A stretch of 35,331 bases of DNA. Origin: Planctomycetota bacterium (GTDB lineage: Bacteria > Planctomycetota > Planctomycetia > Pirellulales > Pirellulaceae). Position 1 is the stretch's first letter, and each line of letters starts with the position of its first letter. The notes beneath the pieces are model-generated. The model saw nothing but the letters and a program-made list of their open reading frames with translations, had not been told where the DNA came from and searched no databases. Of the stretch, positions 27,263-32,095 are shown piece after piece. Location of the stretch: assembly GCA_003695565.1 (NCBI GenBank), contig RFIQ01000326.1:1-35331 (forward strand), written 5' to 3'. A program made the translations under genes and the position numbers.

Positions 27263-28303
27263 CTACGCGGGCGCACACGCATCCATGGCGCAGATGCGGC
27301 GGTCAACCGCCTCGGCGACCCGTCGGCAGCGCTGCATGGTGGCAGCGAATTGTTCGAAGTTCAAGGACTGGTAACCGTCGGAAGCAGCCGTTTCGGGATC
27401 GGGATGGACTTCGATGATCAGCCCGTCAGCCCCAGCGGCGACAGCGGCCACCGCCATGTCCGGAACCATGTAGGCATGCCCAGTCCCGTGGCTGGGGTCG
27501 ATGATGACCGGCAAGTGCGTCTTCTTGTGCAAATAGGTGACGGTCGCCAGGGGGAGGGTAAATCGGGTGTGGTTTTCGAACGTGCGAATCCCCCGTTCGC
27601 ACAACATCACGTTGGGGTTGCCTTCGTTCAGAATGTATTCGGCTGCCAGCAAGAATTCATCCACCGTGGCCGAGGGTCCACGTTTCAGCAGCACGGCGCG
27701 ATGGCACTTGCCGACCGCTTCCAGCAGCCGATAATTCTGCATGTTGCGTGCACCGATTTGCAACACGTCCGCGTAGCGTGCGACGAGGTCGACCTCTTCG
27801 CTGCTCATAACCTCGGTGACGACCGCCAGGCCGGTGGCCTCGCGGGCTTGGGCCAGCAGTTTAAGACCGTCTTCCTTCATTCCTTGAAAGCTGTAGGGGC
27901 TGGTGCGAGGCTTGAAGGCTCCGCCGCGCAGGGCCGTTGCCCCGGCGCGTTTGACTGCCTCGGCCGAGGCCATGATCTGTTCCTCGCTTTCCACCGAGCA
28001 GGGGCCGGCAATCACGCCCACTACGCCGGCTCCGGCAGCGAAACCTCCCACTTGGACCTGGGTCGGTTCCGGTTTCAACTCCCGGCTGGCCACCTTGTAG
28101 GGAGCCAGAATCGGTAAGACCTTGGAGACTCCCGGGCCGCTCTCCAAGGCTTCCGCTTTGGTCGCTCGTTCGTCTCCGACGGCAGCGATCACCGTTCGCT
28201 CGGTTCCCTGAATCACATGGGCCTTCAAACCCATTTCCTGGACGCGCTCGACCATATGCTGGATCTGTTCGTCGGTTGCGTCTTTTTCCATTACGACAAT
28301 CAT
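27263..28303 (-). CDS. aroF: 3-deoxy-7-phosphoheptulonate synthase (DAHP synthase, class Ibeta with N-terminal ferredoxin-like regulatory domain)
   Basis: [22 protein letters not shown]-domain; [86 protein letters not shown]. Confidence 0.96.
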
Positions 28304-28375: not shown

Positions 28376-28408
28376 CAAAAAACCCCGGCGATCTGTCGAT
28401 CGTCGGGG
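28376..28408 (-). terminator. Leader terminator (3:4 hairpin) of the aroF attenuator
   Basis: Minus strand CCCCGACGATC-gaca-GATCGCCGGGG (one mismatch) followed by TTTTTTGTT, lying about 75 nt before the aroF ATG. Confidence 0.88.
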
Positions 28409-28477
28409 CTGCGATTGGTCCGATTCTTGAGCAAGGCGCGTCACAGACCGGTCCCAGCCCCGTACGTAAAGTACGGG
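28404..28477 (-). promoter_or_regulatory. Attenuator switch: 1:2 hairpin versus 2:3 antiterminator
   Basis: Minus strand segment 1 CCCGTAC (28471-28477) pairs with GTACGGG. Segment 2 CGGGGCT (28456-28462) is exactly complementary to segment 3 AGCCCCG (28404-28410), which overlaps the terminator stem. Confidence 0.82.
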
Positions 28478-28533
28478 CGGAAACCAAAAAAGTCTGCGAA
28501 GAATGCCAAGCCGTGCTGCTTCATACCTTCCAT
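28441..28533 (-). CDS. Phe/Tyr-rich leader peptide (attenuation) MEGMKQHGLAFFADFFGFRPYFTYGAGTGL
   Basis: 30-codon ORF upstream of the aroF terminator with 6 Phe and 2 Tyr codons clustered (AFFADFFGFRPYFTY). It overlaps pausing segment 1. ATG 28533 or 28524. Confidence 0.82.
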   Translation of the reverse strand: MEGMKQHGLAFFADFFGFRPYFTYGAGTGL

Positions 28534-28603: not shown

Positions 28604-28936
28604 TCAGTGATTGTGGCCGCGCACCAGGCCGGTCGAGGTATCGATCAGATACGGGCCGCCGTCGACCGGGCAGGTGGGCAAGCCCTCTGGGAAGTACTTG
28701 GGGTCGCGGCCGATATCGCTCAGGTCGCGCGCCGGGAAGCGACCTTTTTCCCGTCGAAAGAGGGCGGTTTGGATCTGGATGATTTCCCGTTGAACGTGGC
28801 AAGCTTCGCTCTTGGCGATCGATCCGCCGGTACCCAGCCGCGGCACAACGACCGCGGCCAGGATCCCCATGATCGTGACGACGGCCAGCAGCTCGAGCAG
28901 GGACAGTCCCCGGCGGCGAACACCGATAGAACGCAT
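28604..28936 (-). CDS. Type II secretion / type IV pilus-like pseudopilin (GspG-like)
   Basis: Prepilin signature RRRGLSLLELLAVVTIMGILAAVVVPRLG. Confidence 0.92.
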   Translation of the reverse strand: MRSIGVRRRGLSLLELLAVVTIMGILAAVVVPRLGTGGSIAKSEACHVQREIIQIQTALFRREKGRFPARDLSDIGRDPKYFPEGLPTCPVDGGPYLIDTSTGLVRGHNH

Positions 28937-29002
28937 GGCGGTATCTCCTAAGTTGTCTCGGCAACAGGGTCTTCAAACGCACCCGACCGGCGGCAGGGCT
29001 GA

Positions 29003-30136
29003 TCAATGCGCCTGGCTGACGTTGCCGATCATATCGAACATCGGCAGGTAGACGGCCAACAGAATGCCGCCGATGGCGAATGCCAGTCCGGCGGTCAAAA
29101 CCGGCTCGATCGAGCCCAGCATGGCCGACGTGGTCTTCTCGATATCGTCTCGCAAATGGGCGCGAATCTCCTTGGTCACTTCCGGTAGCTGGCCGGTCCG
29201 TTCACCCACCAGCACCAATTGTTTGACGATGGGGGGAAACAAGTCCTTCTGGCGTTCCATGGCCACACTGAACTTTTCGCCTCGACGGATGGAGGAGTTG
29301 ATACTGGTGAGCTGCGACCGGATATAGGTGTTGTGCACAGCTCGGGAGGCTGGCGGCAGCGCATCGACCAGGTTGAATCCGGATTGCAACAAGTTGGTTA
29401 ACGTTTCGGTGAACTGCAGGATAGCCATGTTCCGCAGCCATTTTCCCAGCAGTGGAATCCGCAGCATATATTTGTCCAGCAGATAGCGGCTCCGCGGTGT
29501 CTTGAATGCGACCACCAGTCCCACGACGGCAGACATCAATATGGCACCCAGGATGATACCGTTGTCGCGCATGAATTGGGACAGGTCGATCAGGAACTGG
29601 GTGATGCCCGGCAGGACTGCCCCATTCTCCTCGTACATCTTCTGAAAAGTGGGGATCACGCAAGTGAGCATGAACGTCACCGATCCGGCGCCGGCCACGA
29701 CCAGCAGCATGGGATAGGTCATTTTCTTGATGATAAACGACTTCATCTTGGAGCCGTGTTCCAGTTGTTCGGAGATTCGTTGAAGCGTCAACTGGATGGT
29801 ACCGGCCCGCTCGCCGACTTGCACCTGATGAACCATCAACTCCGGAAAGGTGGCTGGGAATTTCTTCATGCCGATGGACAGCGATCCTCCCCCTTTGATC
29901 GTCTCAGAGAGAGAACGCAGGATCGGGCGATACTTTTTGTAAGTCGCATCGGCCAAGATGGTATCCAGGGCCTGTGGGATCGAAACGCCGTTGACCACCA
30001 GCGTCGTCAGGTTTTGCAGGATGCGCACCAGGTCCTTCTTCTTGATCTTCTTTCCCGGGTCGCTGCCGATCTGGATGTTCTGGAGTTTGGTCAGCCAGTT
30101 TTGGGCCGAACGGTTCTGGGCGGTTGCGGTGCTCAT
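29003..30136 (-). CDS. Type II secretion/type IV pilus inner-membrane platform protein (GspF/PilC)
   Basis: LTTLVVNGVSIPQALDTI, VGERAGTIQLTLQRISEQLE and VGERTGQLPEVTKEI duplicated T2SF domains with hydrophobic segments. Confidence 0.94.
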   Translation of the reverse strand: MSTATAQNRSAQNWLTKLQNIQIGSDPGKKIKKKDLVRILQNLTTLVVNGVSIPQALDTILADATYKKYRPILRSLSETIKGGGSLSIGMKKFPATFPELMVHQVQVGERAGTIQLTLQRISEQLEHGSKMKSFIIKKMTYPMLLVVAGAGSVTFMLTCVIPTFQKMYEENGAVLPGITQFLIDLSQFMRDNGIILGAILMSAVVGLVVAFKTPRSRYLLDKYMLRIPLLGKWLRNMAILQFTETLTNLLQSGFNLVDALPPASRAVHNTYIRSQLTSINSSIRRGEKFSVAMERQKDLFPPIVKQLVLVGERTGQLPEVTKEIRAHLRDDIEKTTSAMLGSIEPVLTAGLAFAIGGILLAVYLPMFDMIGNVSQAH

Positions 30137-30254
30137 GGTCGTCTCTGGTAATGGGCTCTGGTTATATTGCTAGTAATGAAAGCAGGAGCCGGAGTTGGGT
30201 GCGGTCAATTCTGATCGTCGACCGGTGGTTCCGGCGGTTCGGGGTGGCTTGGGA

Positions 30255-31952
30255 TCATCCGGTCAGTTTGAAGTAGACTTCTTCCACGGTGGTCAATCCC
30301 TGGCGAGCCTGGTTCAATCCGCCGATGGCCAATTCCACCATGCCTTCGGAAGTGGCGATTTCTCGCAGCTTGCTGGCGGGCAAGCCGGCTTCGATGGCCT
30401 TTTCCAGTGCGGGCGTGACCACCATGATCTCGTAGATCGGGATCCGACCGGAGTAACCGGTTCCACCGCAATGGTCGCAGCCGGCACCGGTGTAATAGGT
30501 TGCGTTCAAATCGACTTCGGGCGGGATCTCGCGTCCCTCGAACATCAGTTCGATCAGTTTCCTATTCAGTGGCGTTTCGCGGCGGCAGTGGGGGCACAGT
30601 TTGCGGAGCAATCGCTGGGCCACAGCCGCCACCAGCGCCCCGGCGATCTTGAAGTTGTCCAATCCCAGGTCGTTCAGACGGGCGACTGTTCCCACGGCAT
30701 CGTTGGTGTGCAAGGTGCTGATCAGCAAGTGACCGGTCAACGCCGCCTGGACGCTGGTGGTGGCCGTCTCGTGATCGCGGATTTCGCCCACCAGGATCAC
30801 ATCCGGGTCCTGCCGCATGAGGTATTTCAATCCATTGGCAAACCCCATTCCGAATTCGTTGTTGGCCTGAACCTGGTTGATGCCCGGCAAGCGGAATTCG
30901 ACTGGATCTTCGATGGTCGAGACGTTGCGGGTGGTCGAGTCGATCGAACACAGCATGGAATACATGGTGGTCGTTTTTCCGGACCCGGTGGGGCCGGTCA
31001 TCACGATCATCCCGTGTGGCCGGTCGAGCAGGGCCCGCATCCGCGCTACTTGATCTTCCGGCATGCCCAATGCGTCGAAGCTGAAAGTCTTGCTGGATTC
31101 GTCCAGCACTCGCAGTACGATTTTTTCACCGCGTACACAGGGGATGATGCTGACGCGAAAGCTGGCTCGTTGGCCGTCTTTTTCCAGGGTGATGTTGCCG
31201 TCCTGGGGACGTCGGGTTTCCGCCGTGTCCAGATTGGCCAGCACTTTGATGCGGCCGACCAGCGGTTCTTCGGAGTCGCGCGGGACGCTCATCACTTGCT
31301 GCAACTGGCCATCGATACGGTAGCGGACGCGCATCTGAGGGTCATGGGGTTCCAGGTGGATATCGCTGGCGCCGGCGTGCACGGCTCCCATCAGAATCGA
31401 CTCGACCAATCGCACTACTGGTGCATCGGAGTCGGAATCATCCAGCTCTTCTTCCTCGTCGATCGCGGCGCCGCCCTTGGCCAACTCTTCGTAACGAATG
31501 TCGATGGCCGTCTGGCGAGCCGCGAATCGCTTGTCGAAGGACTCGTCGAGCAGACGGGTCAGTTCGTCGGCCAGGCAGATGGCGGCTTCGACCTCGTAAC
31601 CGGTCATCAGTTCGGTTTCACTGATGGCTTCCATATCGCCGGGCCACACCATCCCCAGCCGCATCTTGCCTCCCTCCACGGCGACCGGAGCGATGTTGCG
31701 GCTGCGGCAGAACGACTCGGGCATCAAGCGAGCCAGTTGCGGATGGACGCTTCCGCGTTCCAAACTCTGGAAGGGAGCTTCGTACTGCTCCGAGAGCGCT
31801 TCACCGAGCTGTTCGCGCGTTAGCAGACCGCGGTGAAGAAGAAAGCTGCCCATCTGCATGCCGACCGTCTTTTGCTCGGCAATCGCCTTTTCCAACTGTT
31901 CCTCTGTGATCCAGCCGCGTTCGACAACGATGTCGCCTAATCTCTTCGCCAT
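30255..31952 (-). CDS. GspE/PulE/PilB-family secretion ATPase
   Basis: MTGPTGSGKTTTMYSML Walker A; VGEIRDHETATTSVQAALTGHLLISTLHTNDA; zinc motif CPHCRRE...CDHCGGTGYSGRIPIYEI. ATG 31952 likely. Confidence 0.96.
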   Translation of the reverse strand: MAKRLGDIVVERGWITEEQLEKAIAEQKTVGMQMGSFLLHRGLLTREQLGEALSEQYEAPFQSLERGSVHPQLARLMPESFCRSRNIAPVAVEGGKMRLGMVWPGDMEAISETELMTGYEVEAAICLADELTRLLDESFDKRFAARQTAIDIRYEELAKGGAAIDEEEELDDSDSDAPVVRLVESILMGAVHAGASDIHLEPHDPQMRVRYRIDGQLQQVMSVPRDSEEPLVGRIKVLANLDTAETRRPQDGNITLEKDGQRASFRVSIIPCVRGEKIVLRVLDESSKTFSFDALGMPEDQVARMRALLDRPHGMIVMTGPTGSGKTTTMYSMLCSIDSTTRNVSTIEDPVEFRLPGINQVQANNEFGMGFANGLKYLMRQDPDVILVGEIRDHETATTSVQAALTGHLLISTLHTNDAVGTVARLNDLGLDNFKIAGALVAAVAQRLLRKLCPHCRRETPLNRKLIELMFEGREIPPEVDLNATYYTGAGCDHCGGTGYSGRIPIYEIMVVTPALEKAIEAGLPASKLREIATSEGMVELAIGGLNQARQGLTTVEEVYFKLTG

Positions 31953-32095
31953 GTCTCTACCTGTTGGGGGCAAGCATTGGGGGATCGTTCATTGGGAATG
32001 GGTGGAGAATCTCGATCGGAGTCGGCCACGTTCTGTCCGCCCCTAGGCAACGCAGCCGAGGCGTACTTCCCGAGGGCCAGCGGCCGACTGCCGGG

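Follow-up and report, generated by a model that had tools for sequence, protein, structure and literature searches.

On the minus strand of the window, by which we mean the whole 35,331-nucleotide stretch of DNA from a member of the Pirellulaceae (assembly GCA_003695565.1, contig RFIQ01000326.1), the gene aroF is very probably controlled by a ribosome-mediated transcription attenuator that senses Phe and Tyr. The full attenuation logic had been claimed for this DAHP synthase gene in the original prediction, and it is supported here by the anatomy of the leader, its conservation, the placement of its codons, the exclusive pairing of its segments, and the co-varying 2:3 arms. From these we infer the transcription start site, the stalling of the ribosome, and termination in vivo. 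The gene (27263–28303) encodes a type I-beta DAHP synthase of 346 aa with an N-terminal regulatory domain; its matches to the family profiles PRK08673 (495 bits, cut-off 335) and TIGR01361 (382 bits, cut-off 268) lie above the curated cut-offs, which bears out the proposed identity of the controlled gene. The protein also aligns over nearly its full length (residues 1–334, E 4e-103) with the Thermotoga maritima DAHP synthase 1rzm/3pg9, and because of this alignment, feedback control of the AroF enzyme is likely in addition to the attenuator. Upstream, a pilus/secretion gene on the same strand (28604–28936) ends ∼70 nt before the leader. It lies in a minus-strand region (28604–31973) with a GspG-like pseudopilin and homologues of GspF/PilC and GspE/PilB (type II secretion/type IV pilus), which is unrelated to aroF.

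The sole good promoter-like site on the minus strand of the leader region consists of a −35 TTGCCA (28560–28555) and a −10 AATAAT (28537–28532) separated by a 17-nt spacer, with 10 of 12 matches to the consensus. Transcription is predicted to start at ∼28525, either right at the leader AUG or no more than 1–2 nt from it. A 30-aa leader ORF with Phe and Tyr codons had been described, and the frame from 28533 to 28441 is indeed present; its proposed start does not stand, as that ATG (28531–28533) overlaps the −10 hexamer and is probably outside the transcript. An in-frame ATG at 28524 lies 7 nt past the hexamer. Because of this overlap, and because 28524 is the position conserved in relatives, whose leaders have no conserved counterpart of the ATG at 28533, translation most likely starts at 28524, 9 nt further downstream. 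The leader would then run from 28524 to 28441 and encode the 27-aa peptide MKQHGLAFFADFFGFRPYFTYGAGTGL, ending at a TGA (28443–28441). Six Phe and two Tyr make up 8 of its 27 residues, an enrichment in codons for the end products as in a classical attenuator. The leader mRNA in the window is probably leaderless or near-leaderless.

Each of the three predicted helices could be located on the minus strand. Hairpin 1:2 lies inside the Tyr/Phe codons as proposed, with segment 1 (CCCGTAC, 28477–28471) as its 5′ arm, a TTTAC loop (28470–28466), and GTACGGG (28465–28459) as its 3′ arm; it is seen in the sequence and in the minimum free energy fold, and compensatory changes occur in relatives. Segment 2 (CGGGGCTG, 28462–28455), the 5′ arm of the antiterminator, shares nucleotides with the final leader codons and with the end of hairpin 1:2. 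Its partner, segment 3 (CAGCCCCG, 28411–28404), overlaps the 5′ arm of the terminator. The exact antiterminator pairing described earlier, CGGGGCT (28462–28456) with AGCCCCG (28410–28404), is present and is lengthened by one pair, G28455:C28411. The intrinsic terminator 3:4 is likewise in place at 28408–28377, where CCCCGACGATC (28408–28398) pairs with GATCGCCGGGG (28393–28383) with one A·C mismatch and is followed by T6 (28382–28377); its stability is approximately −20 kcal/mol, and the T run lies 58 nt past the leader stop codon. The whole leader region folds more stably than its shuffles (z = −3.0). Segment 2 is inside the ORF, with the stop codon ∼11 nt beyond it.

Such an element would adjust DAHP synthase output to how much charged Phe- and Tyr-tRNA is available and, in many relatives, to charged Trp-tRNA as well. 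With transcription starting at or within 1–2 nt of the leader AUG, the first ribosome would load on a 5′-terminal AUG. With an ample supply of aromatic amino acids, this ribosome would reach the stop codon at 28443 and cover segment 2, so that the 3:4 terminator forms. When Phe- or Tyr-tRNA is short, the ribosome would instead stall in the Phe/Tyr cluster and cover segment 1, segment 2 would pair with the emerging segment 3, and the blocked terminator would allow aroF to be transcribed. If the leader were left untranslated, hairpin 1:2 would sequester segment 2 and lead to termination.

The placement of the control codons and the modeled pairing are consistent with this scheme. Aromatic codons take up 68–81% of the positions between 30 and 18 nt ahead of segment 2 and 0% from segment 2 on, a placement at which, in the model, a stalled ribosome would mask segment 1 and free segment 2. 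In a stall scan in which the ribosome was assumed to extend 12 nt beyond the A-site codon, the modeled number of 2:3 pairs in the window RNA is 1.1 without a ribosome, 13–15 for stalls at codons 3–18, 9.9 at Phe19, ∼3 at Tyr21, and 0 at the stop codon. The homolog mean follows the same trend with a ribosome-free 2:3 pairing of 6.7, on account of which hairpin 1:2 is, in the model, a weaker competitor outside the close relatives of the window. The leaders are too variable in length for alignment folding (RNAalifold kept only 3 terminator pairs on a MAFFT alignment of 41 leaders), and we therefore used per-sequence duplexes, partner swapping, and the stall scan. Segment 2:3 duplexes average −21.0 kcal/mol for cognate partners versus −18.6 kcal/mol for swapped ones, and the best of 20,000 permutations reached −20.75 kcal/mol; the permutation test, like the covariation counts, leaves shared ancestry in. 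Covariation had been set as a check on the pairings, and changes on both sides are seen at 6 of the 8 pairs of the antiterminator and at 4 of the 5 of the hairpin, including compensatory C-G to U-A changes in 2:3. The alignment pair counts are only moderately above those of shuffles, with mostly 9–56 of 500 shuffles reaching the observed value, and the gap-free 2:3 core outside the genus of the window often has only 5–8 pairs. The 1:2, 2:3, and 3:4 pairings are read from the sequences as mutually exclusive and conserved, with a covariation signal that is moderate owing to alignment quality.

Conservation was assessed in 60 related genomes, which yielded 49 regions upstream of aroF orthologs and 20 upstream of a ∼50% identical paralog, all processed alike. 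A leader with a Phe/Tyr/Trp cluster and a terminator is present at 43 of the 49 orthologs of the order and at none of the 20 paralogs, so that conservation of leader peptide and helices, whose absence was to count against the original prediction, is borne out; a recognized leader is missing at the remaining 6 orthologs. In the 43 loci the intrinsic terminator lies 48–81 nt past the leader stop codon. The leaders carry a mean of 6.7 aromatic residues in ∼25, an overall fraction that is inflated because leader ORFs were chosen for aromatic content; this bias leaves the positional profile and the paralog control untouched. An aromatic content of at least 25% is found in 1.1% of stop-free 24-codon stretches of the same upstream DNA versus 70% of the leaders, the latter having been selected for aromatics. 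Trp codons occur in 30 of the 43 Pirellulales leaders and are absent from the leader in the window; because they join Phe and Tyr in most relatives, the putative switch can read all three amino acids outside the genus of the window. Phe is encoded by TTT 118 times and by TTC 51 times in the 43 leaders, perhaps reflecting a preference for slow codons or simply U-rich RNA. Many leader ends outside the genus of the window read GGGGCCGGAGGAGGT..TAA/TAG, where the Shine–Dalgarno (SD)-like GGAGG might keep a ribosome close to the stop codon. Across 20 genomes, neither trpE nor pheA showed a leader, and ilvB had none at the loci checked. The paralog lies directly 3′ of pheA in at least some genomes (e.g., G071, G059).

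A strong hairpin followed by T6, only ∼70 nt downstream of a gene on the same strand when measured to the leader, could be read as the terminator of the pilus/secretion gene, in which case the aromatic ORF would have arisen by chance. We consider this extremely improbable: the leader and terminator recur as a unit at 43 of 49 orthologs, a conserved promoter separates this unit from the upstream gene, the aromatic clusters keep a fixed distance to segment 2, and no such unit is found at the paralog, trpE, or pheA. Control of the terminator by a T-box, riboswitch, or RNA-binding protein, with the ORF incidental, deserves consideration given that T-boxes and riboswitches are frequent at terminator-controlled biosynthetic genes. 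It is nevertheless very unlikely, as conservation concerns aromatic coding content rather than an extended structured aptamer, segment 2 is part of the ORF, and Rfam (Phe_leader, Trp_leader, T-box, and others) gives no match above the gathering score in the window and nine relatives and nothing relevant at a permissive E-value.

A different question is whether the attenuator has a conventional form, with a normal 5′ UTR, a start of transcription further upstream, and translation of the 30-aa ORF from the ATG at 28533. That ATG is in frame, and in Planctomycetaceae and Isosphaeraceae most leaders have no promoter nearby, which indicates that conventional forms exist in the phylum. The ATG at 28533 falls within the −10 hexamer, however, and counting promoter-like pairs with at least 7 of 12 matches, we find one that ends 6–9 nt before the ATG in 33 of 43 Pirellulales leaders versus 7 of 328 other ATGs in the same regions. 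These promoters most often have CATAAT at −10, with a TTGC-like −35 and, in most cases, a 17-nt spacer; an SD-like motif is absent ahead of all 43 leader ATGs. We therefore regard the conventional form as unlikely for the window and favor a probably leaderless attenuator translated from 28524. Since a close promoter precedes only 3 of 30 leaders in Planctomycetaceae and Isosphaeraceae, leaderlessness seems to be particular to Pirellulales, in which the sensor ORF is suggested to open a leaderless mRNA.

Comparable leaders, often with Trp codons, are found upstream of aroF at 15 of 18 loci in Planctomycetaceae, 15 of 20 in Isosphaeraceae, and 2 of 3 in Gemmataceae, where the latter two names reflect 78–85% AroF identity to loci so titled and Planctomycetaceae is taken to be the one large family left over in the class. 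Such leaders also occur at several loci belonging to other classes of planctomycetes, an example being CYWVFYYFKYYYKRGGY (L112). Scattered candidates, aromatic-rich short ORFs with terminators, were also seen at DAHP synthase genes in records of Calditrichota (L221, L227) and Acidobacteriia (L251), which are outside the phylum, and of Nitrospirota and Brocadiaceae (L244, L212). A separate observation concerns leuA, which has Leu-rich leader ORFs and terminators ∼53–74 nt past the stop codon in the genome of the window itself (L331, C144; MQLADQLRLSLILLLREHRGVGLY) and at L330, L332, L334, L335, L336, and L327. This leuA leader is a putative second amino-acid attenuator in the genome of the window and several relatives.

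The proposed switch shares with the enterobacterial pheA and trp attenuators the logic of 1:2, 2:3, and 3:4 pairing and the control codons in segment 1. Enterobacterial leaders are translated from an SD sequence, and the trpL reading frame ends between segments 1 and 2, whereas the planctomycete leader lacks an SD and has its stop codon ∼11 nt past segment 2. The DAHP synthase genes of E. coli are mainly under TyrR and TrpR. A Phe/Tyr-codon leader before a DAHP synthase gene, with ribosome-mediated attenuation proposed, is shared with the aroR-aroF attenuator of Corynebacterium glutamicum (Neshat et al. 2014, as cited in PMC7356990). Compared by leader peptides alone, that system, from another phylum, contains Phe-Tyr-Phe (PMC4046766), whereas the planctomycete leaders have a mean of ∼7 aromatics and often Trp. 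The uORFC-13-1 motif of Acholeplasma, found exclusively upstream of aroF and proposed to act by attenuation (PMC8632094), is similar in combining a Phe-codon uORF, a promoter, and an adjacent intrinsic terminator with aroF downstream; its consensus differs in having a ribosome binding site and another sequence, and its distribution is limited to Acholeplasma and environmental sequences of unknown origin. The predicted start of the RNA at the leader AUG resembles that of the Sinorhizobium meliloti trpL attenuator RNA, which begins at the leader-peptide AUG (PMC7298713). In contrast to the Trp codons and trpE(G) of that system, the planctomycete form has mixed aromatic codons, aroF, and segment 2 within the ORF. 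The attenuation mechanism itself is already known, and the planctomycete form is a phylum-wide variant of it. Our search for literature on attenuation or coupling in planctomycetes, with most subscription papers outside its reach, returned nothing on these genes; within the searchable literature, three features appear to be new: the phylum-wide planctomycete use, the readout of mixed aromatic amino acids, and a leaderless geometry in which the ORF includes segment 2. By this arrangement, one element at the first step could control the whole aromatic pathway and read two or three amino acids.

Ribosome-mediated attenuation works only with a ribosome close behind RNA polymerase, which has been doubted for planctomycetes. 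For Gemmata obscuriglobus, a spatial segregation of transcription and translation has been proposed, and the claim is still both cited and contested (PMC6212462; commentary PMC6554331). On balance, we favor the broader view that ribosome-mediated attenuators (at aroF, leuA, and a leuA-like gene) are in use throughout the planctomycete phylum, also in Gemmataceae, and are leaderless in Pirellulales. If true, these attenuators would require transcription–translation coupling, against the strict separation proposed for Gemmata, and their conservation in Pirellulaceae, Planctomycetaceae, Isosphaeraceae, and Gemmataceae makes the coupling question experimentally testable. The Gemmataceae leuA leaders matter most for this question because the genus apparently closest to Gemmata is without an orthologous aroF. 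In that Gemmata-like genus cluster (g59; G071, G091, G118, and others), an attenuated aroF ortholog is absent, and all that remains is the paralog linked to pheA, at which there is no leader. Within the Gemmataceae, both leuA and another leuA-like gene, which perhaps encodes citramalate synthase, carry Leu-rich and Ile/Val-rich leaders (e.g., ...VVVITTG) followed by strong GC hairpins; the loci with such leaders are L329, L373, L378, L379, L344, L385, L389, and L395.
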